A stretch of 64,000 nucleotides of DNA from Prostheceraeus crozeri (lineage: Eukaryota > Platyhelminthes > Polycladida > Euryleptidae), in the NCBI GenBank assembly GCA_907163375.1, contig CAJQUW010001436.1, forward strand, positions 69,501-133,500, in the 5' to 3' direction. Below, one piece after another: positions 5,417 through 31,441 of this stretch. A model generated the notes under the pieces. That model saw nothing but the letters and a program-made list of their open reading frames with translations, had not been told where the DNA came from and ran no database searches. Positions within the stretch are counted from its first letter, which is position 1. Each line of letters begins with the position of its first letter. Both the position numbers and the translations under genes were made by a program.

Positions 5417-5499
5417 CAGTAGAACCCACTTATAACGGACTCGGTTATAACGAACTCTCGGATATAACGTACTCCTCTTGCAGGCACGGTCAAAAATTC
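5417..5499 (+). mobile_element. Left terminal region of interrupted Tigger/pogo element
   Basis: The stretch begins CAGTAGAACCCACTTATAAC after a TA dinucleotide at 5415-5416. It contains repeated TTATAACG/GATATAACG words, the terminal style of Tigger/pogo elements with TA target duplication. It is cut at 5499 by E1 and resumes at 27535 with the same style of words (GCTGTAACG, GGATATAGCGAACTC). The matching right terminus was not found in the window. Confidence 0.6.
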
Positions 5500-6001
5500 A
5501 CGTGTGTGAAGTTAGCGGAACCACTCAGCGGAACCATTTTTTATTAGCCTATAGCTTAATTCTATTCGAAACAGCTGCTAGTTTGTCAATTTCAGTCTCC
5601 TGATTACGAATCTGAACTCAGATTTCACAAATTCACAGTCGTTTTTGAGAAATTCAAGTTTAAAGATAAAAGTGGTTCCGCTGTGAAGTTAGCGGAACCA
5701 ATTGCTGAGTCTCACTGATTGACGCAGTAAATCAATTTCTTTTGGTCACTACCCGATCAGTTTTGTTGTGCTGATCACGAATATGTGCCTCATCTTTCAA
5801 AACAATGCAGATTTCACCCGGAAATCTGAATTTCACTTTTTCTGCAAGCTGATTGTGAAGTTAGCGGAACCATTTTTTAATACAAAGAATTTCTCAGCAA
5901 AATCCATCCTCTCCTACTAATTTGTAGCTCCTAATCACAAATATGTAATCAGATTTGCAAAACTCGCCCGCATTGCAAAGATATTCCTCTATCTGGGTCC
6001 G
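5500..6001 (+). repeat. E1 left inverted arm with three tag modules
   Basis: The arm pairs with 27534-27089 and, beyond the pogo insertion, 23237-23182. It holds the terminal module (5500-5537), a full stem-loop (5673-5700) and a half module (5854-5872), spaced about 172-182 bp. Each contains TGTGAAGTTAGC followed by GGAACC. Confidence 0.85.
5673..5700 (+). promoter_or_regulatory. E1 tag stem-loop
   Basis: Perfect 9-bp stem TGGTTCCGC / GCGGAACCA around a ten-base loop TGTGAAGTTA. The same loop core in E2 is enclosed by a different stem (TGGCGGTG / CACCGCCA). It is likely a protein-binding site of the element's transposase; this is inferred from repetition and position, not from a known motif. 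Confidence 0.6.
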
Positions 6002-6034
6002 ATATTTAGCATCAATTCATCTATTTCTCCAACA

Positions 6035-6217
6035 ATGAGCACCGTCAACCAGCTACAACCTCAGAGTTCAAAGGAAACTGAGGAAAGAAACCGGAAGTTC
6101 GAGATAAAATTATTCAGACATCTAAGTCAGTTATCGATGGCTCTTTTCCTTCGTCGCCAACAGGTTGAATGGCTTTCGGATCTGTTCGATCGGTGTTGCG
6201 ATTTACCCTGGGACTAG
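6035..6217 (+). CDS. Short hypothetical reading frame of E1
   Basis: A 60-residue frame begins just inside the E1 left arm with MSTVNQLQPQSS and has a charged middle (KETEERNRKFEIKLFRHLSQ) of helical character, ending CCDLPWD. It could be a first exon of the E1 gene because it lies at the right place, but no splice donor fits clearly and no family is recognised. Confidence 0.2.
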   Translation: MSTVNQLQPQSSKETEERNRKFEIKLFRHLSQLSMALFLRRQQVEWLSDLFDRCCDLPWD

Positions 6218-7183
6218 GCCGGCCTTACGCTCTCAGCCATGTGTAGAAGGAACGCGTTTCATGGGACAGCACAGGTCACTAGCACACTGCTCTTGAGGAC
6301 CACAGCTAGAAAACAGCTGCCACCATTATGAGAAGGCATGATTGGAGGATCGTTACCGCTTCTGTTGGCCTCATCTTCCTGCTGGAAAAAAATTGAAATT
6401 TTCTACCAATTCAGATAAAATAACTAAAGTGAAGAGAAACTTTTTAATTTACTCAATGTCAATGGCGCCCCCTCCGAATTTTTCCGGCCACGCCCCCCTG
6501 CTAGCAATCACATCCCTGTATACAAATAACGAGGTTTAGGCCTAAAATGGTATTTAAAAGTTGTAGGTAAGACCATCGTTCCCTGCACAGTTGACACACG
6601 GAACTCACAAGCAATCTGAAACTCCGACGTTTGGTATTTTGAATTTCAGGAAATCATGTTGAGAAATGTGATGATTTCCTCACATTTCTGATGGGGAATA
6701 AGAAGGGGGAGAGCATGTTTTTAACATATAATCAACATTGCATCACCCACTATCACACTCACTGGCCACTCACACGCCCGCCAGAATCATTCCGCGGTTT
6801 GTGCTGTACAATCTACGAGTAGCTACTATTGTTATGCGTATCAACAAGTGAATCTATGTGCTATGCTGTACAAACATATCTTCCATACCTGCTTCCACAC
6901 CGTGTCAGTAAAGACAAACTCTCATTCCTTTTAGCATTAACTACATTATTTGACTTATACGTTTTTATATACTTTCGGCTCGAATGGACGCGGTGAAAAA
7001 TGTTGAGGAGACAGAAGATACCACAGATTTTGCGAACGCATAGTACCGGGTAGTCAAAAAGTCCTTGGACTCTTGGCAATGCTACACAAATATTTTATTT
7101 GAATTGAAAAACAAATAACTATGTCTATGCAAGAGGAGGCATACACGATAATAGTTAATAGATAATAGATAATATACACAAAT

Positions 7184-8248
7184 TTATTCAAAATGAAGTC
7201 CATTGGCCTGTATACATCGGTCTATTCTGTTGGCCCAATCACGAAATGCAGTAGTGAAATGATGATGATCGATATTTTCAATTTCTTGGGTGATCTTATT
7301 TCTTAAATTGTTGAGATTAGCAAATCGTTCTCCAGGAGTAAACACTTTGTCTTTCAAATAGGACAAAGAAATGAATCCACACACAGTCAAATCCGGTGAA
7401 CGTGCTGGCCATTCGACTGGCTGTCTTCGGCCGATCTATCGTCCTTGCAAATGCTGATCTAGCAAGTTTCTCACATCTGCTGCATTATGGCATGAAGCCC
7501 CATCTTGCTGAAAGATCATATCTCTTCCAGTACGACGAGTAAAATATGGTATTACAAGTGAAACAACAACATTGTCTATGTATCTTTCCGCGTTCATAGT
7601 CTCCTCTTGAATAATGTAAGAAACAAGACCTCTGCATGAAAACCAGAGCCCAAACTGTTAAAGATCTTGTAGTGCAACTTTTTTTGCAATGCGAACGTGG
7701 GATTTTCAATTGACCAGTATTGTAAATTGTGTTTGTTTCACATTCCCATTTAAATGAAACGAACACTCATTCACTGAATGTAATTTTTCTCAAGTAAGCA
7801 GGGTTATTTTGCAAATTGTTTTTCATAATTTGACAGAACTGCAATCTTCTGTCATCGTCGCCATCGTGCAATTCTTGCGAATAAGTAGGCTTGTAAGGAT
7901 GGGCATGTAGTTTTTTATGTAAAATGTTAAAAGCATTTCCATGTGATACGTCCACCAGTTCATCTGCAATGTCATCAATTGACAATGTAGGATCATTTGT
8001 AATCGGTTCCTGGTTTCTTCAACCTTGTCGTCTCTACTTGCATTGACGGTCTTCCTGATCTTGGACGATGTTTTTATGACTGATCCAGTTTCCAAAAGTA
8101 AATCTCCTAAAAAGTACAACGTACTCTTTGCTGGGCAGTCCTTATTAAACATGTCTCTATATTTTTGTGCTACTTGTGCAGGACTTTTAAATGAAATCAT
8201 CCAAGACGTCAAATATACTTTTTCTTCAATCGGTAAATCACCCATCAC
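7184..8248 (-). pseudogene. Mariner-like transposase, decayed
   Basis: Minus-strand pieces in order: 8248-7986 with a helix-turn-helix-like start (MMGDLPIEEKVYLTSWMISF, then KSPAQVAQKYRDMF and a TGSV linker); 7985-7767 (ADELVDVSHGNAFNILHKKL...RRLQFCQIM), ending where the first catalytic D would be; then IFQQDGASCHN (second catalytic Asp) near 7520; and WPARSPDLT followed by VCGFISLSYLKDKVF. In the last block the catalytic Asp is replaced by Gly; the inverted duplicate on the right keeps Asp there (VCDSFLWSYLKDKVF). Frameshifts lie near 7990, 7770 and 7640, and a TGA interrupts QGR-IGRRQP. It is of the Tc1/mariner DDE class and not functional as written. Confidence 0.7.
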
Positions 8249-8319
8249 GCACAGCAGCTAATGTTGCAGTCACAAATGCTACAGACGCGCGCCGTACGAT
8301 TTCTCAGGTTTCTCTCGGT

Positions 8320-8776
8320 TTCATGCAGAGGTCTTGTTTCTTACATTATTCAAGAGGAGACTATGAACGCGGAAAGATACATAGACAATGTTGTTGCTTC
8401 ACTTGTAATACCATATTTTACTCGTCGCACTGGAAGAGATATGATCTTTCAGCAAGATGGGGCTTCATGCCATAATGCAGCAGATGTGAGAAACTTGCTA
8501 GATCAGCATTTGCAAGGACGATAGATCGGCCGAAGACAGCCAGTCGAATGGCCAGCACGTTCTCCGGATTTGACTGTGTGTGATTCATTTCTTTGGTCCT
8601 ATTTGAAAGACAAAGTGTTTACTCCTGGAGAACGATTTGCTAATCTCAACAATTTAAGAAATAAGATCACCCAAGAAATTGAAAATATCGATCATCATCA
8701 TTTCACTACTGCATTTCGTGATTGGGCCAACAGAATAGACCGATGTATACAGGCCAATGGACTTCATTTTGAATAA
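8320..8776 (+). pseudogene. Inverted duplicate of mariner transposase 3' half
   Basis: Plus-strand copy of the catalytic C-terminal half: GLVSYIIQEETMNAERYIDN, RDMIFQQDGASCHNAADVRN, a TAG at 8522-8524, then SPDLTVCDSFLWSYLKDKVF and the end IQANGLHFE with a stop at about 8776. It keeps the third catalytic aspartate that the left copy has lost. Confidence 0.7.
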
Positions 8777-9178
8777 ATTTGTGTATATTATCTATTATCT
8801 ATTAACTATTATCGTGTATACCTCCTCTTGTATAGACATAGTTATTTGTTTTTCAATTCAAATAAAATGTTTGTGTAGCATTGCCAAGAGTCCAAGGACT
8901 TTTTGACTACCCGCTATTCCCCAAAATTCGCCAATAAACTTCTATTGCGGTACATCGGCCTCTTACCCCTTTGGAGCTCGTTAGCGTTGCCGACTGGACA
9001 ATCGCGGCTATCCAACGCATGCGTGGAGGCATGGTTTAACATCACTAAGACTCATGTGTTGAATCACAATGCAGCAAACACAGTGGGAGACTTCGAGAGG
9101 AAGATCCGGCCATCCGTGCTCGGGCGACTGAAGCACAATTTGGATCGTCTTGTGAATACAGTGGATGTGATGGAGCAG

Positions 9179-10618
9179 GTACTGGTAATAGCTTTTTTTC
9201 CATGAAATCGGCACATAATTTATGTATCAGGTCTTCCTTTACACTTTCCTTACCTTGGCAAATTGAGCTGCTATGTTTTCATCACTGATGGCCGCATGGA
9301 AGCAAAGTTGTTTAAGCACTGTATTTGTACATCCATGTATTTCTTTAGGACTTTCTCTGCAGAAACTCATTCTGGCTGCCGGACTATTACTACATGCAAT
9401 CAAATTTTTCCAGGCTATGGATTTATCATTATCATACGTATCCAATATCAAGCTCGTTTCTGAAATCGTTGTACAACCCAGAAATAGCATTTGTCATTTG
9501 TAACTGATCAAATATCTAGTAGGAAGTAATAACTACATGTACTAATTATTTGATTCATTCTATTCACTTGGTCAGCCGAGACACTTGATTTAGGTGTGGT
9601 TTGGCTAATTGAGTGAAGTAATTAGTGTTTGGAAATTAGTTACTTATTTAACTAATCATGTCATATCGGCCCTTTTTTGTCATGTCATCACTGATGACTT
9701 GCTAGAAATCGATCCATTTTTCAGACGCAAGCGGCAGCAACCACGTCGTGAAGAAATTACTATTGTTTGTTTAATAGGCGCAGACAGGCCCTCGTCTACA
9801 GACCTGGAGACTGCGATCCCGGGGACTTTTCCAAATCCCGGTGTTTCGGTATTTCGAAACAAATCACTCCATAGCATATTTAGACGAAGAAAATTGCTTT
9901 CTGATGTCTGTATGAAAAATTTACTACTTTCCATAAACTGTGATCGCTACTGCGTGGCCATTGAATGCCGTCGGAAATATGGATTTCGTGAGTAGATATC
10001 TGGGGATAATACCATATAGTAATAACTCTGGTGTCACATAATACCCATTTGTTTGATTATAAGCTTTATTATTTGAACAGTTGTTTTAATTGCGATGTCA
10101 TTATAATTTTATTCGAATCGAGAACGATGATTTAACTGATGGATAATACAGTGTGTTATCGGGATTTAAGGTACATAATTTGGGATTGGCATAAATTTGG
10201 CCGAGCATCGGTCCCTTACATTGGGATGGCATCATATTACAATGGCCCAATGAAAATGTTAAACCCCCCCCCAAATAAATGCCGATGTAAGGACAATGTT
10301 TGGGGGAAATAAGGTTCCCATATATTGGGAGATGACATTGGCTTTTTGCTATTTTTCACATAGCCTATAGGCTATGTGAGGAAAATATAATCAGAGAAAG
10401 ATCTAGGAAAGCCCTAGTAGTCAAGACTACAGCTGAACCACTCGTAAAAAGATATGTTTTATATAGTGCATCGCTTAAAGAAATGTGAACGACGACTTCA
10501 ACACGAAAATTACATTTGTAAATGTGTTGATTTTTGTGAAACTTTTTTTAAAATGGTCTACATCTATTTCATGTGTCCTTCATGTCTTTCTATCTCGAAA
10601 TCTTGCATTTTTTACCAG
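9179..10618. other. E1 intron-like sequence with one possible exon
   Basis: Mostly AT-rich and without supported genes. A frame at about 9725-9985 begins after TTTTTCAG, reads RKRQQPRREEITIVCLIGAD, and ends at a GTGAGT donor, so it may be an exon of the E1 gene. Its phase does not fit the preceding exon and it is not recognised. 10260-10270 is a run of C. Confidence 0.3.
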
Positions 10619-11168
10619 ACGACCACTCGATGGATAGTGAGGACGAGATGTTGCAGAAGATAAGTGGATACGAAAGACCGCCAACTCTGCCGAATCCCAC
10701 ACGTTACCTTCCCGAAGGCAAATTTTCAGATTCCCCTTTTACCGAATTCCAGTCACCGACTCAGTTGAAGGCAGGACTGTGAATGTCCGACATGCCTGTC
10801 AAATTGATGGATTCCTAACCGCATTACAACTTGAATCTATGAGGACTGCAATTTGCGTCATCGTTTCCTTCCCGGACTATCACACAACTAATTCGGGGTC
10901 TCAGTAGCTCAAATGATCAAGCCATGCTATGTCATGAAAGAGCCAAGTTTTTTGGTGAAATCCGAGCCTAAAATCCCAGAGCTATTATCGTCTGATGATG
11001 ACAGAACAACCCATCAACCTATTTGGCAAACGACACGGAGATACTAGGAGGGCTTTGTTTTTAGGATCCTCGATGGCGGTAAACTACTCAAACAACATGC
11101 AACAACAAAAACTGCGACAGCGACGTGACTGGGAGCTCCGAATTGTCGCTGTCTGTCATTGGAATGAA
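10619..11168 (+). pseudogene. E1 exon with USP-like Cys box
   Basis: The exon is bounded by TTTACCAG (ending 10618) and GTAAGA (11169). It starts in the frame DDHSMDSEDEMLQKISGYERPP and shifts near 10735 to one reading RIPVTDSVEGRTVNVRHACQ, then IDGFLTALQLESMR. The A-C-Q-I-D-x-F-L-T-A-L block (Cys codon 10797-10799) resembles the catalytic Cys box of USP-type peptidases in degenerate form. Further frames follow (SEPKIPELLSSDDDRTTHQ; ELRIVAVCHWNE), interrupted by stops. Together with the exons at 13447 and 15097 it suggests a transposon-encoded papain-fold domain. It is frame-shifted at least twice. Confidence 0.4.
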
Positions 11169-11765
11169 GTAAGAACGACATTGGATTATTGCATTTGATT
11201 GTTTTAGGAATAATTTTTAATCCCTTGAGGTCGTTCAAGAAAAACTAGTCGTTTTTTCTCGATTTTTGAGCCACTTCCAATCCATAATCGATCCCGCAAT
11301 CGCTGTTGAACACCCTTAAATGACAATGATTACGGTACGAAATCGCTTTATGAGACTTTGAACCCTAACAAAATCGTTCTGACAAATAATGGAGCACTAA
11401 AAAAATAAAATGTGGAATTCTAGATAACATAGTTGGCCTAATCTCAGTAGCCTATCAACTGTTGTGTGTTTTTATTGGTATATGAAATCAATTCATAAGG
11501 AGTGAATGCACTTGATGTAAGTTGAGCTGTACTTCTGGCAGATAAAATGAAATCAAATTTCCCTTTCGGCATTGATATCCTTTTGTCCTGGCTCCTAAAC
11601 TCACGCGAGTGTACTAGCAATACCGCACTCGTGCACTTTTAGAAAGCTCTAAAACGAAACTTCTGCATGACAACGAAAGGAAAGCACACCGAATGAAATT
11701 CGATACATGTAGACCGACCGAAGAGATGCTGAATCATAAGAAAACAAATGTAGGTCGGTGATATA

Positions 11766-12911
11766 TTAGGGATTGCAATCTCGAGATCTCGAGATCTCGC
11801 CCGATTTTTCAAATTTCGAATCTCAAGATTGAACACCTCGAGATTTCGAGACTAGAAGGATTTATTATGAGTTCGATAGCTCTCAAGTATTCAATAAGCT
11901 AATACTCCTATCAACCTTGATGTTTAGACTGAAAGTACAAGCATAAGCACACTTAGAACATCACATTATCCTAATAAACGTGTAATTGTCCACATTACCT
12001 TATTCTGACAAGCAACATATTTTTACGACGCGTAGAACTGTCAAATCATGATACAACAACCCATAGAGCAAGCGAGGTCCGGTCGTGCCTACCGTATAGC
12101 TCAATGTCAATATTCATGTCTTTTGAGGTTTTATTTTTCTAAATAAACGAAGTGAACTAATATGTCATGATTGAGTCTGCATAGCTTAATGATGCTCTAT
12201 GGCATGATAAGACATATTTTGATTCAACGGTTTTTTCATTTATTTCACTTTTCATTTTACATATGTTGCAGATAGGTCTATGTATGATTATTATGTAGGC
12301 CAACAAAAACACTATGAGAATTCATAAATAGCCCAGCTGGCTACCAAACCAAATTTGTGACCCTTATGCAACGAGGACATGGATTTCATCTAATAAGAAT
12401 TGCATGATCAGGTTATTTTAGATTTTTTAAGAATGTGCTTATCATCATGAGAAACAAAAATCAATTTGGTTATTGATTTGTATCAAAACTATTCAATCAT
12501 TGTCAATTATTAACACTCGACAGAGAATAGGCCTAAATCAATCTAAACCAAACACTTTGATCTAAACACTCTTCCGTATCATATTCTTGGAATTAATATT
12601 TGCCAAGTCGGAACAAGCATTGATTTAGGAAACACTTCAACAAAAATTGGTGTAGGCCTATTCCTTCACAACAGAACAGCTTGACACAAATTTGAGTGCG
12701 AATTAGCAGCTTGGTGTATAACGGTACCTATACCGCTATTATAGACCCTATAGCTTGCATTATCTAAAATGATAATGATCTTTCGACTCTCTATGGTCAC
12801 TAAAAGTCAATTCCGCATCAAAAATAAAAATCTCGACGAGATCTCGAGATTAGGATTTCTGAAATCTCGAATCTCGAGATTGAAGAAATGACCTCGAGAT
12901 TCCAATGCCTA
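11766..12911. mobile_element. hAT-like non-autonomous element rich in CTCGAGAT
   Basis: The left end TTAGGGATTGCAATCTCGAG and the right end (reverse complement TAGGCATTGGAATCTCGAG) pair imperfectly. Flanks GTGATATA (11758-11765) and GTGATATT (12912-12919) match in 7 of 8 positions, the duplication length of hAT. Clusters of CTCGAGAT lie just inside both ends (11770-11850, 12825-12900). There is no transposase-like frame in the 1.1-kb interior. Confidence 0.65.
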
Positions 12912-13446
12912 GTGATATTTAGTTTCTGTGCATTAGAAATTTGCAGCTCAGGGTTCTGTTATTATGTCTACTTGACAGCTTATTATGACGCTGACAACTC
13001 ATTCAATAGTTTGAACATTTCAAAAAATCGTTCTAAAATAATTGCATCCAAAAGCAAACAAAAACAACGAAAACAAAGCAAAAAATCACGTTTTCTATGT
13101 TTCAAAACACTTTTTAAAAGCATGTATCTTGAAACCTAGTATAAACCACGCGCTAGTACGACTAGGCCTACTTGTAATTTCAATTATTCAAATTTAGGAT
13201 TAGGAATGATGGATGCGTCATCTGCCAATTTCAGTCCGTTATTAGTGATATCGAGGAAAACGCTGAATGCCTCGATGGACACCGTCTCCACATGCGATAA
13301 ATGTGAAAGGTTAGTCCAATCTCTTCGTTTCATGTTCGAACCTGTTGCCGTTATCCTGACAACAGTTATCAAGTTAAGAGCATATAGAGTCAGATAAGCA
13401 TATGTACCTCTATTATTTGACTTATAAAGTTCATTTTCCTTTGCAG

Positions 13447-13563
13447 TGGAATGCGACAGATATCAATATGCAATGCGCCAAGGATTTTGGTCTTGGATTT
13501 CGGCATACAGCATCTTCCCGGATGGAATCGAACACCCATAACAATTCGGATGTTTGGAAGAAG
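13447..13563 (+). pseudogene. E1 exon, USP-like core strand
   Basis: A clean exon between TTTGCAG (ends 13446) and GTAATT (13564). In the second frame it reads RQISICNAPRILVLDFGIQH followed by LPGWNRTPITIRMFGRR. A 'P-x-I-L-x-L-D-hydrophobic' strand followed by 'LP...I.I' is what precedes the His box in USP-like peptidases. The assignment is a pattern judgement; its support is that it lies between a Cys-box exon and a His-box exon on the same strand within E1. Confidence 0.35.
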
Positions 13564-14649
13564 GTAATTTCCCTATTCCACTTTAGAAACATGCACATGC
13601 AGTGGAAGCAAGCAGCCACCCGAAAGTGTGTAGTGGGTGTCCTGAGTAGAAACAAATTTGCCAAATCAACCCAGCACCACCATTGGAGGCCCTGATATGC
13701 TACTATTGATGCTGGCATTGAAGATGTGAGTCAGATCAGCGAATTATCCGAATGGCATAATGGAAAATCCGATCCCACCCGTTTCGAGATCTATTGATTT
13801 ATTTGCATACATAATCTTTGAATTGAAAGCATTGGATCTTAGTGTATAGCTGCAGGTTGTGTAGGCCTGTCTTCATTTTGAATATAGGCATACAGTTGGG
13901 CGTATAGGCTACATTATGCGGGTTCGCAGCCTAATTATGGCAACCGGTAAAAATATCGTCTGGTCTTCAATGTAGACATAGTACTAATATCTTGTTGCTG
14001 AATTACGTATCTCAATAGCCATTCGGATTGGTTCATATTATGTATTATATATGTGGTTATGTATTTATATACATAGGCTCGACTGATAAGACAAGCGGTT
14101 CAACACTTTCGTATGGACTGACTAGCCTAATGATTTTATGATTTAGACTTAGAAATCATAACTGAATTAAATATGAATAATAATGAAGCCTTTCAACACA
14201 CAAAGTAATGATACTAAAATATACTTGGCCGGTCCGGCCTATTCACTTAGTACGAAAACATTGAAACAAATCATACTATCTATATACAGAAATCAGCTGC
14301 TAAATCATGTTGAAAAACTTGATTTTTTTAATGCATATTTTATTCATTTATGATTTCTAAGTATTTCTTTACCAATTGTGATGAAATAACAAAAAATTGA
14401 AAGATAAATTGGGCCGCAATGTAACAGCCAGTGTGAATGTAGGCTACCTGCATAATGTAGATGAATAACAAATGTAATAATGTCAGACACCGGCAAATAT
14501 TAACTCCATTCAAATATCCATAATTTCGTTCGAATAGAAGCATAATGTGAAAGGTCCTTTACAGCTTGCATCGAGATATCATAGCGTTGGGAATGAGACA
14601 AGATTATTTAGTAATAGAATATTTCTAAGATAATCATTCTATTACAAGA

Positions 14650-14715
14650 TAGCTAAGCAGCTAGAGCGATGGCCCAGACTACCATACGTCGGTGGTTCAA
14701 ATCCAGCAAGACTGG
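14650..14715 (+). repeat. tRNA-derived promoter pair (SINE or tRNA relic)
   Basis: An A-box-like TAGCTAAGCAGC (14650-14661) and a perfect B box GGTTCAAATCC (14694-14704), correctly spaced for RNA polymerase III. No full cloverleaf with paired acceptor stem could be drawn, so it is more likely a SINE head or tRNA pseudogene than a working tRNA. Confidence 0.35.
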
Positions 14716-15096
14716 CAGTAATTTTTCGTCTGTGATATTGTCTGCAATTCCTGCAATTGTCCGCAAAATTCCTATCTGACTACCAAAACAATATACGCGG
14801 ATCTTACTCTGTTTAAGATTGTTGCTACATTTGGATTGAAAAAGACTTTTGTCGAACGCTTTCCAATATGTTACTAAATAGAAAGGAAATGGATAACTCT
14901 TTAGAAATGGCATTCTCTTTATGTCACTGCAAATCCATCGATGAAATAAAATATTTTTATTATACATGTACATTTACTTCATAGGCCTACCTAAAAAAGG
15001 ACACTGTAGGCCAAATGCATGCATATTCATAGACATGTACTATGCACGTTCTCTAGATATCAAAAAACTTTGCGTGAGAGATTCTTCCGTTTTCAG

Positions 15097-15225
15097 ATAC
15101 TGTTTTCATGGAATGACAACATACAATGAGATGAGCCGCCACTATCGCACTGTTCTTCTTTCGGGTGGAAAATTTGTTTAATTTTTGACGATCTGGTCCA
15201 GGACCGACTGCAAACACGGATATTA
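15097..15225 (+). pseudogene. E1 exon with USP-like His/Asp box
   Basis: After TTTTCAG (ends 15096) the exon reads YCFHGMTTYNEMSRHYRTVL then LSGGKFV and a TAA. A one-base shift continues IFDDLVQDRLQTR (Asp codons 15187-15192). H-Y-R-x-V-L...G-K-F-x-x-F-D-D is the His-box signature of USP-type (papain-fold) peptidases, His at 15140-15142. The frameshift near 15176 makes it non-functional as written. It is the strongest single piece of the proposed peptidase domain of E1. Confidence 0.45.
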
Positions 15226-15230
15226 TAATG

Positions 15231-15530
15231 TAGTGTGGATGGTAGTAGAGGTAAGGGGGCGGAGTGGGGAAGTTGATTTGTAAGGGGGTTGCTGGGGTAG
15301 GCGAGAGATTGTTTAGGTCTTGATGTAAATTTAAGAGGTTAGAAAGTATGTGTTTTGGTGGGGAGGGTGTAGAGGATATAATAGGCGATGTTGGTGAATT
15401 AATTTCTCGTGTGGTGGGCGGGCTGGTGGATTGCTAGAGAATTGGTGGTCGAATTCGGGGGGAGGTGAGGGGGGATAAGATGTGCCTGTGGTGCATATGG
15501 TTATGGTCGGTGTGGGGCGGCTGTGATATT
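15231..15530 (+). other. G-rich, C-poor strand-skewed tract
   Basis: About 300 bases are strongly enriched in G (runs such as GTAAGGGGGCGGAGTGGGG and TTCGGGGGGAGGTGAGGGG) with hardly any C, in sharp contrast to the AT-rich surroundings. It codes for nothing. It may form G-quadruplexes, be a decayed G-rich satellite, or reflect a local base-calling problem. Confidence 0.5.
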
Positions 15531-16364
15531 ATTAAATACGAATTTGCATTGACTACGTGTCATTTTCTTCTAATTTTCGATATTTGTTTTGCGTATCACA
15601 ACGTTTCATAGCACACTGATGAGCATCGACTAAATAAAAATTGATAGTATGAAATACGAATTATCAAATAAATTTGTAATTCTGTTTGACTGTAGCAATA
15701 TTCTTACAAGCATACCCATACATATTATGACTTAGGTAAAAAAGCGTAAACGGTGCAACCTATCATATCATGGACTGAAAGGAAAGATTAAGTGTAATTC
15801 GGCCTATGTAAGTGCGAAGTATAGTAGAGAACAGAGAAAAGTATGTTGGTAGAAGCTTCAACACTGGATAATTTCACCAAAACTGATTGATTTTTCATTA
15901 ATGCAAGAATCGCACTTATTAGCAAGTTTCTTATCTTTTGTCACCTCAGAATATTATGTAACTAATGAATTACCAATCCGCTGCAGAGATTTGACAGCAT
16001 GGAACCGAAAAATGTTATCCTACTAAGACTTTATGTTTTTTGATACGAAATGAATTAATATGCACAATAGCTACAAAGCATTGCAATCTTTTAACAATGA
16101 AGCGATTCTGAATCCTTTTTAGGACAACATGAAAGTTTTTCTTCAACTAACCTCGTAATTACAAACAACAAACATGGAGAAATTAGCGATACCACGTGTG
16201 TGAAGTTAGCACCGCCACTCAGCACCGCCATCTTGAAAATGGAATGTGCCAGTCAAACCAACGGTCAAAATCGATCTAGATGGAGTGTGCCAGCATGTGC
16301 CACCCATTATTTTGAAAGAATTCCCCCTAGTTTAGGAAAAATCGCTGCTCGAAAGTTCGACATG

Positions 16365-16390
16365 GCGGTGATGTGAAGTTAGCACCGCCA
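16365..16390 (+). promoter_or_regulatory. E2 tag stem-loop (first internal)
   Basis: TGGCGGTG, ATGTGAAGTTAG, CACCGCCA: an 8-bp stem around the same core as E1. Further copies in the left arm have cores near 16541, 16713 and 16872, and about 25 lie in the right-arm array. Some array copies carry a changed 5' half (GGTGGTGATAAC), which weakens the stem. Confidence 0.6.
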
Positions 16391-18574
16391 CTAAAACTTT
16401 TTTTCCAAAATACACAGTCAAAACATACAAAACACGCACAACAGATAGAAGACCATGAAAAACATTGTGCCAGCAAGTTTCAGCACCTAAATCCCCGTAC
16501 TTGCTGAGAAATTAGTCCCCGAAGCCACAAAATGGCGGTGATGTGAAGTTAGCACCGCCATTGAAGTCTTTTTTTAAAATACGCAAATAAAACGTACGAA
16601 GCAAGAACAGCAGATAGGAGACCATCAAAAACATTGTGCCAGCAAGTGTCTTCTCCTAAGACGCCGTACTTGCGGAGAAATTAGCCCCCGAAAGCTCAAT
16701 GCGCTGGCGGTGATGTGAAGTTGGCACCGCCATCTTGAAAAATGCATGTGCCAGTCAAACCAACGGTCAGAATCGATATAGATGGAGTGTGCCAGCATGT
16801 GCCACGCGTTTATTTCAAGAAAACCCCACCACAGTCGGTGGAAAACCAACCCGAATGCTCAATGGCGGTGATGTGAAGTTGGCACCGCCAGTGAATGTTT
16901 TTTCCAAAATTGGGACCACTCAATGGAGGTATTGTAAAATTTTCCACTTCAACATTAAGCCGTTTACTTACTGGCTATACAGATATCAATGCAAATGCGA
17001 ATATCTCGACAGGTGAATACCGTCATGTGCCTGAACTGTTAACAGAAAGCTGAAGCTATTACTTCGTTCAAAACTCTGTAAGACAGTGAAGGCATTTGAC
17101 GAGTATATGCAATGGCATAACTAGGAAGACTTACTTTCTTATTAAAGGCTATTGATGAATAGCATTCGATTCGTTTATGCTTCCCCGCATGAAGGAGGAG
17201 CGTTCGCGACTTACAACGTCAAAACTATTGGTAATAGTTTGAATTTTTCATTTGACCAACGACGTCCCATGATTGGTCAGTTTTCGGTTACCATATGATC
17301 AATATATCGATAAACATTTTCATCTGTTTGCCGTGGAAAATATATTCACGGCATGCGATTAATTACAGCCTGTACAACTTAAAACAAGAATGATTAAATA
17401 GATGTGTTTATGAAATAATGGAAATACTCTACGAATAGATTAGATATTGTGACTTCTAGCTAGATCATATGAAGTAGATGAGTCTCAATATCCCTTCAAT
17501 TTTGATTATGCTTGCACATCCAGTGAATCAGAAATTCTTGAAGTCAATTGAAACATTGATAGAAAACAATGTTGGCAATATCTACAACATTATTAGTGTC
17601 ATGATGTGCGTACATCTTTATCACATTTGATGATCTTGATGAACAATTGAAGCAATAACATTAGGAGATCGAAGGGCATATTTCCAGTGTTGTCAGACTG
17701 CTTCATCGAAGAAGCATGATGCTCAATTGAGTTTGTGGTGCTTTCAAACATAGAGTAGGGATATATGGGATATCCTAATATACTTACTCTATGCTTTCCA
17801 ATGTGCGCAATCTTTTTTGGAAAGGAATTATCAAACTACATCGTTCAAACCATAGAGTAGGTTCTAACCTACAGTGGAAACAGATTCTCATTAAATTGAG
17901 GATGACCCAGCCTTCTTGATGATGGTTACCCATCGAGGTTTTGAAAAACATTCGAAGGGCTGGTTTGTATAACCCAATTAATTGTCTGGAAAATTTTTAT
18001 CTCTTCTCTCGATCCGCACAAAATTGCGGGAATTTTTAGAATTCCACAGGTGTGTGTTAAACACATCTATTTAATCATTCTTGTTTTAAGTTGTACAGGC
18101 TGTAATTAATCGCATGCCGTGAATATATTTTCCACGGCAAAGAGATGAAAATGTTTATCGATATATTGATCATATGGTAACCGAAAACTGACCAATCATG
18201 GGACGTCGTTGGTCAAATGAAAAATTCAAACTATTACCAATAGTTTTGCCGTTGTAAGTCGCGAACGCTCCTCCTTCATGCGGGGAAGCATAAACGAATC
18301 GAATGCTATTCATCAATGGCCTTTAATAAGAAAGTAAGTCTTCCTAGTTATGCCATTTCATATACTCGTCAAATGCCTTCACTGTCTTACAGAGTTCTGA
18401 ACGAAGTAATAGCTTCAGCTTTCTGTTAACAGTTCAGGCACATGACGGTATTCACCTGTCGAGATATTCGCATTTGCATTGATATCTGTATAGCCAGTAA
18501 GTAAACGGCTTAATGTTGAAGTGGAAAATTTTACAATACCTCCATTGAGTGGTCCCAATTTTGGAAAAAACATT

Positions 18575-21500
18575 CACTGGCGGTGCCAACTTCACATCAC
18601 CGCCATTGAGCATTCGGGTTGGTTTTCCACCGACTGTGGTGGGTTTTTCTTGAAATAAACGCGTGGCACATGCTGGCACACTCCATCTATATCGATTCTG
18701 ACCGTTGGTTTGACTGGCACATGCATTTTTCAAGATGGCGGTGCCAACTTCACATCACCGCCAGCGCATTGAGCTTTCGGGGGCTAATTTCTCCGCAAGT
18801 ACGGCGTCTTAGGAGAAGAAACTTGCTGGCACAATGTTTTTGATGGTCTCCTATCTGCTGTTCTTGCTTCGTACGTTTTATTTGCGTATTTTAAAAAAAG
18901 ACTTCAGTGGCGGTGCTAACTTCACATCACCGCCATTTTGTGGCTTCGGGGACTAATTTCTCAGCAAGTACGGGGATTTAGGTGCTGAAACTTGCTGGCA
19001 CAATGTTTTTCATGGTCTTCTATCTGTTGTGCGTGTTTTGTATGTTTTGACTGTGTATTTTGGAAAAAAAGTTTTAGTGGTGGTGATAACTTCACATCAC
19101 CGCCATGTCGAACTTTCGAGCAGCGATTTTTCCTAAACTAGGGGAATTCTTTCAAAATAATGGGTGGCACATGCTGGCACACTCCATCTAGATCGATTCT
19201 GACCGTTGGTTTGACTGGCACATTCCATTTTTCAAGATGGCGGTGCCAACTTCACATCACCGCCAGCGCATTGAGCTTTCGGGGGCTAATTTCTCCGCAA
19301 GTACGGCGTCTTAGGAGAAGAAACTTGCTGGCACAATGTTTTTGATGGTCTCCTATCTGCTGTTCTTGCTTCGTACGTTTTATTTGCGTATTTTAAAAAA
19401 AGACTTCAGTGGCGGTGCTAACTTCACATCACCGCCATTTTGTGGCTTCGGGGACTAATTTCTCAGCAAGTACGGGGATTTAGGTGCTGAAACTTGCTGG
19501 CACAATGTTTTTCATGGTCTTCTATCTGTTGTGCGTGTTTTGTATGTTTTGACTGTGTATTTTGGAAAAAAAGTTTTAGTGGTGGTGATAACTTCACATC
19601 ACCGCCATGTCGAACTTTCGAGCAGCGATTTTTCCTAAACTAGGGGGAATTCTTTCAAAATAATGGGTGGCACATGCTGGCACACTCCATCTAGATCGAT
19701 TCTGACCGTTGGTTTGACTGGCACATTCCATTTTTCAAGATGGCGGTGCCAACTTCACATCACCGCCAGCGCATTGAGCTTTCGGGGGCTAATTTCTCCG
19801 CAAGTACGGCGTCTTAGGAGAAGAAACTTGCTGGCACAATGTTTTTGATGGTCTCCTATCTGCTGTTCTTGCTTCGTACGTTTTATTTGCGTATTTTAAA
19901 AAAAGACTTCAGTGGCGGTGCTAACTTCACATCACCGCCATTTTGTGGCTTCGGGGACTAATTTCTCAGCAAGTACGGGGATTTAGGTGCTGAAACTTGC
20001 TGGCACAATGTTTTTCATGGTCTTCTATCTGTTGTGCGTGTTTTGTATGTTTTGACTGTGTATTTTGGAAAAAAAGTTTTAGTGGCGGTGGTAACTTCAC
20101 ATCACCGCCATGTCGAACTTTCGAGCAGCGATTTTTCCTAAACTAGGGGGAATTCTTTCAAAATAATGGGTGGCACATGCTGGCACACTCCATCTAGATC
20201 GATTCTGACCGTTGGTTTGACTGGCACATTCCATTTTTCAAGATGGCGGTGCCAACTTCACATCACCGCCAGCGCATTGAGCTTTCGGGGGCTAATTTCT
20301 CCGCAAGTACGGCGTCTTAGGAGAAGAAACTTGCTGGCACAATGTTTTTGATGGTCTCCTATCTGCTGTTCTTGCTTCGTACGTTTTATTTGCGTATTTT
20401 AAAAAAAGACTTCAGTGGCGGTGCTAACTTCACATCACCGCCATTTTGTGGCTTCGGGGACTAATTTCTCAGCAAGTACGGGGATTTAGGTGCTGAAACT
20501 TGCTGGCACAATGTTTTTCATGGTCTTCTATCTGTTGTGCGTGTTTTTGTATGTTTTGATTGTGTATTTTGGAAAAAAAGTTTTAGTGGCGGTGCTAACT
20601 TCACATCACCGCCATGTCGAACTTTCGAGCAGCGATTTTTCCTAAACTAGGGGGAATTCTTTCAAAATAATGGGTGGCACATGCTGGCACACTCCATCTA
20701 GATCGATTCTGACCGTTGGTTTGACTGGCACATTCCATTTTTCAAGATGGCGGTGCCAACTTCACATCACCGCCAGCGCATTGAGCTTTCGGGGGCTAAT
20801 TTCTCCGCAAGTACGGCGTCTTAGGAGAAGAAACTTGCTGGCACAATGTTTTTGATGGTCTCCTATCTGCTGTTCTTGCTTCGTACGTTTTATTTGCGTA
20901 TTTTAAAAAAAGACTTCAGTGGCGGTGCTAACTTCACATCACCGCCATTTTGTGGCTTCGGGGACTAATTTCTCAGCAAGTACGGGGATTTAGGTGCTGA
21001 AACTTGCTGGCACAATGTTTTTCATGGTCTTCTATCTGTTGTGCGTGTTTTGTATGTTTTGACTGTGTATTTTGGAAAAAAAGTTTTAGTGGTGGTGATA
21101 ACTTCACATCACCGCCATGTCGAACTTTCGAGCAGCGATTTTTCCTAAACTAGGGGGAATTCTTTCAAAATAATGGGTGGCACATGCTGGCACACTCCAT
21201 CTAGATCGATTCTGACCGTTGGTTTGACTGGCACATTCCATTTTTCAAGATGGCGGTGCCAACTTCACATCACCGCCAGCGCATTGAGCTTTCGGGGGCT
21301 AATTTCTCCGCAAGTACGGCGTCTTAGGAGAAGAAACTTGCTGGCACAATGTTTTTGATGGTCTCCTATCTGCTGTTCTTGCTTCGTACGTTTTATTTGC
21401 GTATTTTAAAAAAAGACTTCAGTGGCGGTGCTAACTTCACATCACCGCCATTTTGTGGCTTCGGGGACTAATTTCTCAGCAAGTACGGGGATTTAGGTGC

Positions 21501-22790
21501 TGAAACTTGCTGGCACAATGTTTTTCATGGTCTTCTATCTGTTGTGCGTGTTTTGTATGTTTTGATTGTGTATTTTGGAAAAAAAGTTTTAGTGGCGGTG
21601 GTAACTTCACATCACCGCCATGTCGAACTTTCGAGCAGCGATTTTTCCTAAACTAGGGGGAATTCTTTCAAAATAATGGGTGGCACATGCTGGCACACTC
21701 CATCTAGATCGATTCTGACCGTTGGTTTGACTGGCACATTCCATTTTTCAAGATGGCGGTGCCAACTTCACATCACCGCCAGCGCATTGAGCTTTCGGGG
21801 GATAATTTCTCCGCAAGTACGGCGTCTTAGGAGAAGAAACTTGCTGGCACAATGTTTTTGATGGTCTCCTATCTGCTGTTCTTGCTTCGTACGTTTTATT
21901 TGCGTATTTTAAAAAAAGACTTCAGTGGCGGTGCTAACTTCACATCACCGCCATTTTGTGGCTTCGGGGACTAATTTCTCAGCAAGTACGGGGATTTAGG
22001 TGCTGAAACTTGCTGGCACAATGTTTTTCATGGTCTTCTATCTGTTGTGCGTGTTTTGTATGTTTTGACTGTGTATTTTGGAAAAAAGTTTTAGTGGCGG
22101 TGCTAACTTCACATCACCGCCATGTCGAACTTTCGAGCAGCGATTTTTCCTAAACTAGGGGGAATTCTTTCAAAATAATGGGTGGCACATGCTGGCACAC
22201 TCCATCTAGATCGATTCTGACCGTTGGTTTGACTGGCACATTCCATTTTTCAAGATGGCGGTGCCAACTTCACATCACCGCCAGCGCATTGAGCTTTCGG
22301 GGGATAATTTCTCCGCAAGTACGGCGTCTTAGGAGAAGAAACTTGCTGGCACAATGTTTTTGATGGTCTCCTATCTGCTGTTCTTGCTTCGTACGTTTTA
22401 TTTGCGTATTTTAAAAAAAGACTTCAATGGCGGTGCTAACTTCACATCACCGCCATTTTGTGGCTTCGGGGACTAATTTCTCAGCAAGTACGGGGATTTA
22501 GGTGCTGAAACTTGCTGGCACAATGTTTTTCATGGTCTTCTATCTGTTGTGCGTGTTTTGTATGTTTTGACTGTGTATTTTGGAAAAGTTTTAGTGGCGG
22601 TGCTAACTTCACATCACCGCCATGTCGAACTTTCGAGCAGCGATTTTTCCTAAACTAGGGGGAATTCTTTCAAAATGATGGGTGGCACATGCTGGCACAC
22701 TCCATCTAGATCGATTCTGACCGTTGGTTTGACTGGCACATTCCATTTTCAAGATGGCGGTGCTGAGTGGCGGTGCTAACTTCACACACG
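18575..22790 (-). repeat. 503-bp tandem array of E2 right arm, about eight units
   Basis: Equivalent points fall at 19160, 19663, 20166, 20670, 21173, 21676 and 22178, a 502-504 bp period. Each unit consists of three sub-repeats of about 168 bp, and each sub-repeat carries one stem-loop with TGGCGGTG and CACCGCCA enclosing the reverse complement of TGTGAAGTTAG. Units are nearly identical. The left arm contains little more than one unit, so the array grew on one side only. Confidence 0.9.
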
Positions 22791-23237
22791 TAGCGATACC
22801 AGCGTTCCGATGGACGAACACTTGTAAACCGTCTTCTTCAAACATCTATTGACTTCAGAGGCACAGCAGCATGCACCGAGAAGGGAAGCGCACAAGAGGT
22901 AATTCTACATTGTGATGCAATAATGCATTCTAGAATTGTGCTGCAATAAATGATGGTTCGGCTGATCTGGAGGAGGTTGGATTTTACTGAGATTCCGATG
23001 AAATCCTTGAAAACCGTAAAATCAATTTTTCTCGGCAAGTACTTATTCTCCCGTGAAATCGGACGGCAAACCGTGATCAGTGAAGCGATTCCATTCTCTT
23101 GGTATGTCTATTGCAGTGATTCTGTGCAAAAATTAGAATTTGAAATTTTAATGCCAGTAGATGGTTCCGGGAGCTTCACAGCGGACCCAGATAGAGGAAT
23201 ATCTTTGCAATGCAGGCGAGTTTTGCAAATCTGATTA

Positions 23238-26200
23238 GGGTAAAATGGGGTGGTATGGACACGGGGGGATATGGACACTTTTTGATCTAATTTTCGCTGA
23301 TAATTCCATGCTAACATATTCATGAAATTCTATTCGATTTGGTTTATATTGTTAAGAAATGATCTGGTGCTTCTTAATATCAGTGATTTGTAGCCAATAT
23401 ATTGGTGTTCTGGCATCCAGTGGGCTATTTACACAAAGGGATTTTTTTGCATATAATCACTTTAATCTTCAGACTCAAATTTTGGGGAATAAAAGTATCC
23501 TTGCATAATGCCACATGTTTTTTTATGATTCACAATGCTTCTAAATATTCCACCGCAAAGCTGAACCTGTATGAAGTTACAGTAAATAATATAAGAAGAG
23601 AATCGAAACTGTTTTTGAAGCAGGGGTGATATGGACATCTTCGATATCCATATTTTGAATACCTAAAGTCATAGAAATTAACAATACCATAGAAAGTCCT
23701 AGAATGGAAATTGCATGAAAATTATGGCACACGCCGGGGGAACTTAGTTGGGGCAAAAAGCAAATTTTGCGGACTGACTTTCTTGTTTTCTGTTTGGCAT
23801 TTTCAATTATCAAGTCAATTTGTGATCTAGATTGTTGCCCCTTGTCCAAAGATCATGTACACAAAAGCAATAGTGAATTTACAAAAAAGTGCAGCGACAG
23901 GATGACAGAGAAGGAAATCTTTTATAACGTTCTGTACGTTCATCATTTTGAAATATCAGTCCTATAATCAATCAAGAGTATAATCAGACACATATGCAAC
24001 TTGTAATGTCGATTTACAGAGCATGCATTGGTCCAGCTTAAAATCAGAGGCCAAGAAATCTTACAGTATTCATTTTACTTTGAAGGGTTCCCCTGTTCAT
24101 AATATTTGAACAATTTTCAAAACCTTTGCATGCTTTCGAATATGAGCCTTCAAAATATCATCACACTATGTCAATAATTCATTTAGTGATTAATTGAAAA
24201 GTTCCAACGACATTTCATTTATCTGATAAATGACTGTCGCTTACTTTCGATGTGCTTATTCTAGAGGAGCGCTAGGTTTCTTGACCGTTAGAAGGAAAAA
24301 TTATCCAATAATTAGAATTTTTATCTTTGAATTCTTGAAATATTCTTACAACCAATACAGCGACTACTTTCGATTATGACTCTGTGAACCAAATTTCAAT
24401 TCGTATTCCAGTGTTGAAAAATTGCAGAATAGTTGTTGATGACTGGTACAAATAGACACACTATATTAATCCATGTAATAGTAGGCTATTTCACATAAAA
24501 CAATGCCACTATCTCACTTAAAATTCTCTTCATGAAAATCCTGTAATTTGGTGTCAACAACTTCCACAACCAACTTGGCAAATAGTTTGACTATGATATA
24601 ATGTTTTAGATCGAATCTGATCTGCAGACCATAGATTTTTCCATGTGCCATCATTGCACATAGGCAAGATATCAAACTTCCATTCTAGTGTATTATTATC
24701 TACTTCTATGCCTAAAGTAGATAGTTGAAGCACAGTTAGTAACCAATTTTCTTTTACATGATTGACAATGAGTTCACAAAGATAATCGAACACTTTAGAT
24801 AGCCGTACAAGGAATTTTGAATATTTCAATGTAATAATAACTTGATTTAGCGCTGCAAATATTGATTTTGTGAAATATGATCGACGCTATCTATGGAGTA
24901 TACAATCTGAAATATTTGCAAAACTCAAATCATAATATAGAGGAATATCTATGCAAGTCGAGAGCGCGTCACCGAAGTTGACTGCATAGCTTACTGATTT
25001 ATCATAGAATGCTAGGCGCACGTGTCCATATCACCCCGATACGATTGGCTGATAACGTGATGAAACTTTTGCTGCCTATGCGATAATAAAATTGAATTCT
25101 ATGATTCTATCATTGTCATCGCTTCTACTCAAATTCATATTAGTTCATTCATAGTTACTGTGACTAATTGCTGCATCAAATTTGCAATGCCTAGAACCCA
25201 TAAATAAAAAAACGCTCGTCTTAACTACAGTAACAATAGCATGTTAAATGCGATCTGTCTCCTAAAACAGGATACACCTCTTTCAACGGCTGCTCATCGT
25301 TTCAGCGTTCCTCGAAATACTCTCCGTCGACATGTGAAAAACGAAACTATACGCCCAGGTGGGAAGACTATTTTCACTTATCAACAAGAAAAGATTTTGT
25401 GTAAACGCATTCTATATGCAGCTGAGCGTGATTTCCTATGACTATTTCTAACATTCGATTCGCGGCTTATGAATACGCACATACTCTTGATCGTCGCAGA
25501 AAATTGAATTCCAGTGTTCCAAATAATTGGCAGAAGAACAAGCGGGCATCACTTGACTGGTGGGAGTCGTTCGCAAACGAAATAAAGATCTTTCGTTACG
25601 AAAACCTGAAGGACTCTCTGCTGCGCGTGTGCAGGCCTTTAACAAGGAAAGAGTTGATAGTTATTTCAATGATTTAAGAGAACTGTTTGATCTTCTCAAT
25701 TTGAGAGTTTCCTCAGCTTGTCTACAACACAGATGAGACAGGGATATCCACAGTGCCTAATAATCCCAGCAAAGTGCTTGCACAGAAAGGAGCTCGAAGT
25801 GTGCAGGCTGTTCGCACAGGTGAGTGAGGAACATTAGCAACAATCATATCGACTGTTTCTGCATCGGGAGACATTCTGCCACCTTTCGTCATTTGCAAAG
25901 GGGCAATGTGAAGATGACTGTACGAAACATCTACGAAACTTATAATATCGCGTCGCCTCCACGAAGTCTGGTTATAATGATTCAGAAACTTTTGTTCGAT
26001 ATCTGAATCATTTTGATAGACACAGGACGAAAATTCCAGGCAAGAAGTGTGTTTTACTTCTGGACGGACATGCTTCACATGTTTCCATCGAAGCTATTGA
26101 TTTCTGTATTAGTCATGACATTTGAGTTAGTTTGCATACCACCTCATTCAAGCCATAGATTACAACCGCTTGACACGCATTTTAATGCAGTCCTCAAACG

Positions 26201-27086
26201 CGCGTGGTGCAAGGCCCTTGAAAATTTTCTAAACGAGAGCGGAGTCTCCGCGATTACGACCGAAAATTTCGCTTCGCTCTTTGTGCTGTTTCAAAGAAAT
26301 TGAGAAGAAAAGAGGTCTTGTTGTTGACCATTTGCACATTGCGGAATATATCCATTGCAAAATACAATCAGTGATCATGAGCTCTCCGTTTCAAAGTCAT
26401 TCCTTTCAGAAGTTGAAAGTAAGATGGAAATTGATTCAGTCAAGCCTTGTGATGTTCAAGATTCTGAAGGTATCTTAATCAGATCTATAATTTGCAGCCC
26501 TAAGAAAACTTTGAATCCTACACATACTAAAGTCCATAAGATTCACATCACGTCTCCAGTAATTAGGGAGAAAAAACTTATAGTTCGAATGCGATTTGAT
26601 CAAAAGAAGAAACCATCGTGCCGTTTGATAAACGATGGACAACAATCGCCATGCACATCCAGAGATATCGAAGACAGTATCAGAAAATTGGATGAAATGC
26701 GAATCTTGCAACAAGTGGTGTTGTGAATCCTGTTTCGGCACTTTCTATTGCTATAAATGCGCTGTAAAGTTTATGTGAGCCTTCTAGGTAGACTGGTTTT
26801 GTCTCACCTTTGATAGACTACTTTGTTCTTTTAGATTGTTATGTTGAATAAAGAATTACTCGTTGGTGTCCATATCACCCCGACTCCTTTTTTCCCTTGA
26901 AATTTGTATCCCTTACGCGATGCTATATATAAATATCATAATGGATTTTCATTCCCTTGAGACACAATGTTATAGAAAGGCAGTGCCCTAAGCTACAATT
27001 TAGCGTATTAAATGTATACATTCTTTCGCTTATTACTCAGAATTTAGACCCTAAGCAAAAAGTGTCCATATCACCCCATTTTACCC
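23238..27086 (+). mobile_element. pogo-like DNA transposon 1
   Basis: Left end GGGTAAAATGGGGTGGTATG and right end ...CATATCACCCCATTTTACCC, flanked by TA (23236-23237, 27087-27088). The insertion splits the right arm of E1, and the intact left arm supplies the empty site, so the boundaries and the TA duplication are directly supported. The transposase remnant is on the plus strand; several introns or breaks separate its parts. Confidence 0.85.
25241..26303 (+). pseudogene. pogo-family transposase, decayed
   Basis: In order: a helix-turn-helix of Psq/pogo type (LSTAAHRFSVPRNTLRRHVK, 25271-25345); a CENP-B-like second DNA-binding part (RFAAYEYAHTLDRRRKL ... KRASLDWWESF, 25450-25575); the first catalytic aspartate in YNTDETGISTVPNNPSKVLA (about 25722-25775); a DILPPFVICKG block (about 25870-25905); the second aspartate in LLLDGHASHVS (26055-26090); and the third in HSSHRLQPLDTHFNAVLKRA (26145-26205). 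The DDD triad is that of the pogo/Tigger group. A premature TGA follows RTGE at 25827, and at least five frame changes or stops are present. Confidence 0.75.
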
Positions 27087-27534
27087 TACAGATTTGTGAT
27101 TAGGAGCTTCAAATTAGTAGGAGAGGATGGATTTTGATGAGAAATTCTTTATATTGAAAAATGGTTCCGCTAACTTCACAATCAGCTTGCAGAAAAAGTG
27201 AAATTCAGATTTCCGGGTGAAATCTGCATTGTTTTGAAAGATGAGGCACATATTCGTGATCAGCACAACAAAATTGATCGGGTAGCGACCAAAAGAAATT
27301 GATTTACTGCGTCAATCAGAGAGACTCAGCAATTGGTTCCGCTAACTTCACAGCGGAACCACTTTTATCTTTAAACTTGAATTTCTCAAAAACGACTGTG
27401 AATTTGTGAAATCTGAGTTCAGATTCGTAATCAGGAGACTGAAATTGACAAACTAGCAGCTGTTTCGAATAGAATTAAGCTATAGGCTAATAAAAAATGG
27501 TTCCTCTGAGTGGTTCCGCTAACTTCACACACGT

Positions 27535-27813
27535 CAAAAAAATACCATTGTGTCTATATAAAATGCCTCGGCTGTAACGTACTACTTGGATATAGCGAAC
27601 TCTTTTCAAGGGTCCACAGAGCAAATTTTGATTTTTTACAACGTACTTAGGGATGAAAGTATTTAAGTATTCTGAATCATCGAAACGAAGCTGACACGAT
27701 TCTAAAATAACTTGCTGCGTTTGATTATGGCAGCAAAAACTCTTGTCATTGGCTCGGAGGAGGACAACTTTTGGGTGTTGAATTGAGACATTGTCTGTCA
27801 TGGTGTCTTCTTA
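27535..27813 (+). mobile_element. Continuation of interrupted Tigger 5' region
   Basis: Continues the Tigger sequence cut by E1. It contains CTATATAAAATGC (27556-27568, a possible TATA box) and GTAACG/ATAGCG words like the left terminus, and is ended by the Harbinger insertion at the TTA 27811-27813. The transposase frame resumes after the Harbinger at 47652. Confidence 0.5.
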
Positions 27814-31118: not shown

Positions 31119-31441
31119 GATGCAGCCGCAAAGCAATGGTTTGTGATAGATCCTCGAAGTTCAGGTTGAACAATTGTCATTGAATAAGTGCTATTGTATG
31201 TATGTATCATTTGACTGCAAGCATGTTGCTTCGGTGCGCTCATCCTACGTTCCCCGACCCTTCATCGATTAAAAGCCGTGCGCGCGCCTGGCATCATAAC
31301 TCGTATTGTGAGACGGCGTGACTAGCAGTCTATCTCTCTCTTGTCTCTGCACCACATTGAATTGTGAGCTCTATCCTCCGTGCCATTTTGTCATTGCTGT
31401 GATTCGCATTTCTTTTCGAGACAACTACCAGCATTTTTTTA

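Follow-up and report, generated by a model that had tools for sequence, protein, structure and literature searches.

Two nested foldback-type transposons of a polyclad flatworm differ in a four-letter word, in step at their ends and in their internal modules

The stretch of Prostheceraeus crozeri DNA analyzed here (GenBank assembly GCA_907163375.1, contig CAJQUW010001436.1, positions 69,501 to 133,500 of the forward strand; 64,000 nt without any N, hereafter the window) carries two nested foldback-type transposons, an outer element E1 and an inner element E2. Their ends share one pattern, ACGTGTGTGAAGTTAGC-X-ACTCAGC-X-A, in which X is a six-letter word that reads GGAACC in E1 and ACCGCC in E2, and the same words recur around a core in modules spaced along the arms of each element. 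The feature is real and well-defined, and is best read as a set of predicted protein-binding sites with a lineage-specific half-site. The two elements consist of the following parts; the ends, E1 modules 2 and 3 and the target-site duplications were located directly in the sequence.

5500..27534, no strand assigned: E1, outer foldback-type transposon, both ends located, holding E2 and two insertions taken to be mariner-like and pogo-like
5500..6001, plus strand: E1 left arm (BLAST: 5500-5947 against 27534-27087, 98.0%; 5946-6001 against 23237-23182, 98.2%)
27087..27534, minus strand: E1 right arm, outer part (BLAST arm match)
23182..23237, minus strand: E1 right arm, inner part, split off by the pogo-like insertion (BLAST arm match)
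5500..5536, plus strand: E1 left end with two direct GGAACC words
27498..27534, minus strand: E1 right end with two direct GGAACC words
5673..5700, plus strand: E1 palindromic module 2, TGGTTCCGC-core-GCGGAACCA
27334..27361, minus strand: right-arm copy of E1 palindromic module 2
5854..5872, plus strand: E1 module 3, one-sided, with the right X alone
27162..27180, minus strand: right-arm copy of E1 module 3, one-sided
23162..23189, minus strand: E1 module 4, degenerate (16/19 to the E1 half module)
16194..22791, no strand assigned: E2, nested foldback-type transposon of 6598 bp, both ends located, with a 9-bp target duplication, AGCGATACC
16194..17410, plus strand: E2 left arm, comprising the end, modules A, B, C and D and an inner inverted repeat (16222-17410 against 19246-18058, 98.9%)
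18058..22791, minus strand: E2 right arm, comprising the end, eight A-B-C units, D and the inner inverted repeat (BLAST and site counts)
16185..16193, plus strand: E2 target-site duplication, left copy
22792..22800, plus strand: E2 target-site duplication, right copy
16176..16193 (continued at 22792-22801), plus strand: module-like sequence at the E2 insertion point, 14/19 to the E1 half module when read without E2

The arms of E1 are ~502 bp long and ~98% identical to each other. Each holds three clear module positions, the end followed by steps of 177 and 172 bp, and a worn fourth lies ~149 bp deeper; in the left arm just the first word of this fourth module (5995-6000) falls inside the repeat. 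Similar TATAACGAACT-type sequence stands on either side of E1 (5440-5474 and 27567-27602; 80.6% over 36 bp, E 0.005), and it looks as if E1 sits within the terminal part of an older element. Within E1, two CTCGAGATCTCGAGATT-rich stretches in direct orientation, ~1 kb apart (11782-11845 and 12837-12901; 78% over 69 bp), are possibly the ends of another inserted element.

The target duplication of E2 is perfect over its 9 bp on both sides. The E2 arms exceed 1.2 kb, contain ~170-bp repeats (left-arm steps from the end through A, B, C and D of 173, 170, 172 and 158 bp) and match each other at 94-99%; since the A-B-C unit is present eight times in the right arm and once in the left, the arm lengths are very unequal. 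The eight right-arm units of ~503 bp (18597-22622) have the appearance of a satellite-like array, and the ~170-bp module spacing is nucleosome-like.

A sequence-only reading of this DNA had placed the four ends of the two elements correctly: all four match the shared pattern with at most three mismatches, while 100 shuffles gave no match. The core TGTGAAGTTAG, allowing one mismatch, occurs 37 times in the window where 1.35 occurrences are expected, and every occurrence lies in E1 (6) or E2 (31). The word-bearing strings are just as confined: GCGGAACCA occurs nine times, all within E1, and GCACCGCCA 28 times, all within E2, neither being found in the window outside its own element.

Comparison of the two elements locates the change precisely. 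Between the left ends, 8 of 37 positions differ, every one of them in the first four letters of X, which read GGAA in E1 and ACCG in E2, and the trailing CC is common to both words. The right ends show the same differences plus one E1 base just before the second X, where E1 has CTCAGA in place of the expected CTCAGC. The confinement of all eight left-end differences to the 12 X positions has a probability of 1.3e-5 if differences are spread evenly, and of 0.0012 when both words are taken as a single event. The internal modules follow suit, as the 28-bp module at 5673 of E1 differs from module A of E2 at nine positions, eight of which fall on these four letters of X, once in each side of the stem, with the ninth adjoining the core. 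The earlier proposal that X is swapped as a whole word thus held for the coordinated change at ends and stems, with the correction that four letters switch and the final CC stays.

Within each element the agreement is high but short of complete. GGAACC is exact in 11 of 13 E1 words (the exceptions being GGGTCC at 5995 and GGACCC at 23183), and the E2 word is exact in 59 of 62, as ACCGCCA, with ACCACCA in the other three. Internal stems formed by X and its complement were borne out both by the sequence and by folding. The loop between them, which had been called unchanged, reads TTAG in 15 of the 31 E2 cores and departs from it by one base in the other 16 (TTGG in 11, TTAT in three, TTAC in two). 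The 31 E2 sites, matching the "some 30" first reported, are of five kinds only (end, A, B, C and D) and include the eightfold A-B-C unit; they are not independent agreements, and their weight as independent evidence had been overstated. A complete site can be described as one core plus two C-NNNN-CCA half-sites, which are inverted round the core inside the arms and stand as direct words, 13 bp apart, at the ends. We also considered a second shared motif, AATTTCTCAGCAA, whose orientation is reversed between the two arms, and rejected it, as words shared outside the modules are not above shuffles.

The sequence between the modules behaves differently from the modules themselves. In a BLAST comparison (E≤1e-3) with E2, the leading 601 bases of E1, which take in its left arm, match over the 30-bp ends only. 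We then aligned all 21 pairs of seven spacers and set each percent identity against the best of 30 shuffles: none of the 12 E1-E2 comparisons exceeds it, the three spacers of E1 fall below it when compared with one another, and the only pair to beat it is E2 end-A against C-D (86%). Identity between the E2 spacers A-B and B-C is 80%, below the best shuffle of 84%, while modules A and B agree at 28 of 28 positions. Nor are there words common to the E1 left arm and the E2 left arm with its adjoining sequence, outside the modules, beyond those in shuffles. When the left-arm A-B-C unit of E2 is set against a consensus of its eight right-arm counterparts, 34 of 420 spacer columns and none of 84 module columns differ, although the last left-arm spacer partly resembles a different unit so that the 34 differences are not independent; compared with one another, the eight right-arm units vary in 32 of 420 spacer columns and 2 of 84 module columns. 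In their unlike settings, the E1 and E2 modules are identical save for the X word and the loop variants. The similar module spacing combined with the dissimilar spacers of E1 and E2 indicates that the module is what is kept. The picture suggested by these comparisons is one of sites kept within arms that turn over, with copying clearly active in E2.

The place where E2 inserted resembles a module as well. With E2 taken out, the target reads GGAGAAATTAGCGATACCA, and the nine duplicated bases coincide with AGC-X of the module. It agrees with the E1 half module at 14/19 letters; with E2 and the recognized modules set aside, nowhere else in the window is the match as good, and six other places reach 13. 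One of 3000 shuffled patterns and none of 4000 random places reached 14, and 8 of 4000 places reached at least 13, figures that are optimistic since the statistic was computed after the match had been noticed. The resemblance may mean that E2 landed on a worn module in the interior of E1, or it may be a coincidence.

The explanation we favor, with a probability of roughly 0.6, is that a protein of the element, the transposase or another one, recognizes the modules by two parts, a core that stays fixed and a half-site whose four bases are specific to the lineage. As part of it, E1 and E2 would be two lineages of one long-armed (foldback-type) cut-and-paste family, of which E2 landed in E1. One part of the protein would contact the fixed core TGTGAAGTTAGC and a second part the half-site C-NNNN-CCA. 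The layout suggests why the ends carry direct words: the outer half-site of an end would fall in host DNA, and a second, inner one may substitute for it. Sites placed every ~170 bp could load several protein units on each arm and so help draw the ends of the element together. The preference for the half-site would have shifted in one of the lineages and the sites followed, mainly as arms were rebuilt from a single module or small group of modules duplicated in tandem and were copied from one to the other, with selection removing mismatched sites.

Several observations weigh against this explanation. The evidence comes from two elements, with no protein named and no further copies. The sequences flanking E1, CAAAAATTC and CAAAAAAAT, agree at only 6 of 9 positions, so that a target duplication of E1 is not convincing. 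Module 3 of E1 (5854; 27180) has no left stem arm, and module 4 is worn. Among the eight right-arm A modules of E2, one X position varies (ACCACC in three) and so does one core position, hence not every copy was held. The percent-identity test of the spacers is blunt, since BLAST aligns the A-B and B-C units of E2 at 81-83% over ~200 bp and these related spacers nevertheless stay below the best shuffle. Finally, in Galileo, a Drosophila foldback-like transposon, the THAP domain of one subfamily also bound the arm of another species (PMC3688188), which means that arm differences need not imply exclusive recognition.

The strongest alternative, which we nonetheless consider unlikely, is that copying alone made the words agree, through tandem duplication, unequal exchange and arm-to-arm conversion, in which case no change in protein specificity is needed. 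Much speaks for the process itself: the right arm of E2 is an eightfold A-B-C unit of ~503 bp, some E2 spacers are related (end-A and C-D, 86%; A-B and B-C, 80%), and the arms match at 98% in E1 and 94-99% in E2. Tandem duplication indeed accounts for much of the internal agreement of E2. As a sufficient cause it meets three difficulties. First, the ends with their direct words and the palindromic modules with their inverted words are laid out differently, and the word had to change in two contexts or more. Second, the modules are alike amid unlike spacers, and copying tracts would need to be short, about the size of a module. Third, the change is restricted to four letters of an otherwise kept site.

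The favored explanation, binding through a core and a lineage-specific half-site, has a more far-reaching form: the site may serve as a re-writable address, a constant core with a half-site of four letters that vary by lineage and are matched by a variable region of the transposase, which would keep sister lineages of one genome from cross-mobilizing each other. We regard this as improbable at present. If it were true, the position of E2 on a worn E1-type module would hint that an older address can still guide insertion. A fixed frame with a clean four-letter switch, made alike in the ends and the internal modules, offers a natural experiment on how related transposons of one genome lose cross-mobilization; the switch predicts where the binding protein should differ. 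More sweeping, and quite improbable, is a widely swappable code, in which the host genome would contain many lineages, each with a word of its own that a variable recognition region of the transposase fits. Two words within an identical frame favor such a code, but just two states are known. The coordinated change, more concentrated than evenly spread divergence, fits a specificity change of a DNA-binding protein, and this much of the swappable code of the sequence-only reading survives; a code in the general sense needs more than two states and cannot be shown from two elements.

A role of the modules as hairpins of DNA or RNA with a near-constant loop, in which the pairing of X and not its letters matters, is very improbable: single-strand folding is good (-10.8, -8.9 and -8.6 kcal/mol; z -7.0, -5.2 and -3.9), but the layout of the sites speaks against a hairpin as the primary function, as the direct words at the ends cannot form one, E1 module 3 has a single word, and pairing alone would allow differing stems within one element, where only the three ACCACC words of E2 and the worn E1 module 4 differ.

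The coding capacity of the two elements and the neighboring features are listed next.

8906..9193, plus strand: candidate E1 coding piece, LSNACVEAWF..., 96 residues (open reading frame)
28044-29234: DDE_Tnp_4 (Harbinger-type) gene near E1 (Pfam)
30339-31136: THAP/P-element-type gene outside E1, with no sign of a link to E1 (Pfam)

The peptide encoded at 8906-9193 has no Pfam match, and none of 48 proteins sharing words with it reached E≤1; its pattern matched two viral stretches, neither of which encodes a relative. A Pfam scan of the six frames of 5500-16193 gave a sole match, DDE_3, at E 0.0022, below the cut-off and inside the mariner-like insertion, and none to THAP, P-type or PHD domains. 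Outside its insertions E1 has no open reading frame longer than 128 aa, a limit that a broken or spliced gene could escape. No sign of coding capacity was seen in E2, where the longest stop-free run is 78 codons (16910-18570) and no listed open reading frame reaches 100 aa. As no transposase was recognized in the E1 frames scanned, the family membership of E1 and E2 is not established.

Besides E2, two elements with TA on both sides interrupt E1. The one in its interior (7046-8914), which we take to be mariner-like, has transposase-like frames in two inverted copies (7187-7657 and 8237-8773), which would make it an inverted-duplication mariner; the one in the right arm (23238-27086), presumably pogo/Tigger-like, has transposase-like frames that appear interrupted. 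Further open reading frames at 32073, 47652, 54174 and 55679 are, we assume, transposase-like. With the Harbinger-type and THAP/P-type genes, E1, E2 and these other elements, the window would appear to be eukaryotic DNA rich in transposons.

The earlier remark that no described element has such a property was too strong, as the VANDAL elements of Arabidopsis (PMC5735166) and Galileo (PMC3688188) offer precedents. In VANDAL elements, short non-coding motifs, often tandem-repeated, differ between related elements and change together, and the targets of the VANC proteins differ as well (PMC5735166). E1 and E2 likewise have a repeated motif that differs between the elements and agrees within each, here in two elements only. 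The VANDAL motifs lie upstream or in introns and have an anti-silencing role, in contrast to the E1/E2 word, which stands in the ends and in palindromic arm modules within a fixed frame (PMC5735166). Galileo, a member of the P superfamily, likewise has long arms with internal repeats, short ends that are conserved from one species to another and several transposase sites in the arms (PMC3688188). The arms of one of its subfamilies hold repeated THAP-domain sites not found in other subfamilies, a precedent that supports the modules as transposase sites repeated in long arms. The Galileo site, however, lies outside the conserved terminal ~40 bp, whereas that of E1 and E2 keeps its core and changes four letters, the end included (PMC3688188).

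Other foldback-like systems resemble E1 and E2 in architecture. Long inverted repeats with internal tandem repeats, as in Mutator/foldback elements including Rehavkus, are found in the arms of both; of their target duplications, which are 8-10 bp and mostly 9 bp long, E2 has one of 9 bp and E1 a 6/9 agreement only. Tetris of Drosophila virilis is apparently non-autonomous, with long arms, ~220-bp tandem repeats that give rise to satellite-like arrays and have a stretch of 37 bp in common with the outer arm, and target duplications of 8-10 bp; the part of its description examined reports no switched word or palindromic module (PMC4079207). Tm1, a Mutator/foldback group of root-knot nematodes in which some members have a putative transposase and some do not, has composite arms with tandem repeats and mostly 9-bp target duplications, but its repeat unit is 13-15 bp, its 7-bp terminal motifs are asymmetric, and the part examined describes no matched internal words (PMC3169594). 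Rehavkus has a 9-bp target duplication, terminal repeats of 26-400 bp and a minisatellite, and differs in its PHD-finger transposase, no PHD match being present in the E1 frames of 5500-16193 (PMC6446971). Exact-pattern searches of viral and prokaryote contigs gave no further copies, which says little about a eukaryotic family, and open-licence papers contained neither a case of a constant frame with a four-letter switch nor TGTGAAGTTAGC, a search that did not cover Repbase, so that a described family with these ends is possible. What sets E1 and E2 apart from these known systems is the constant frame round a four-letter switch, present both in the ends and in the palindromic modules.

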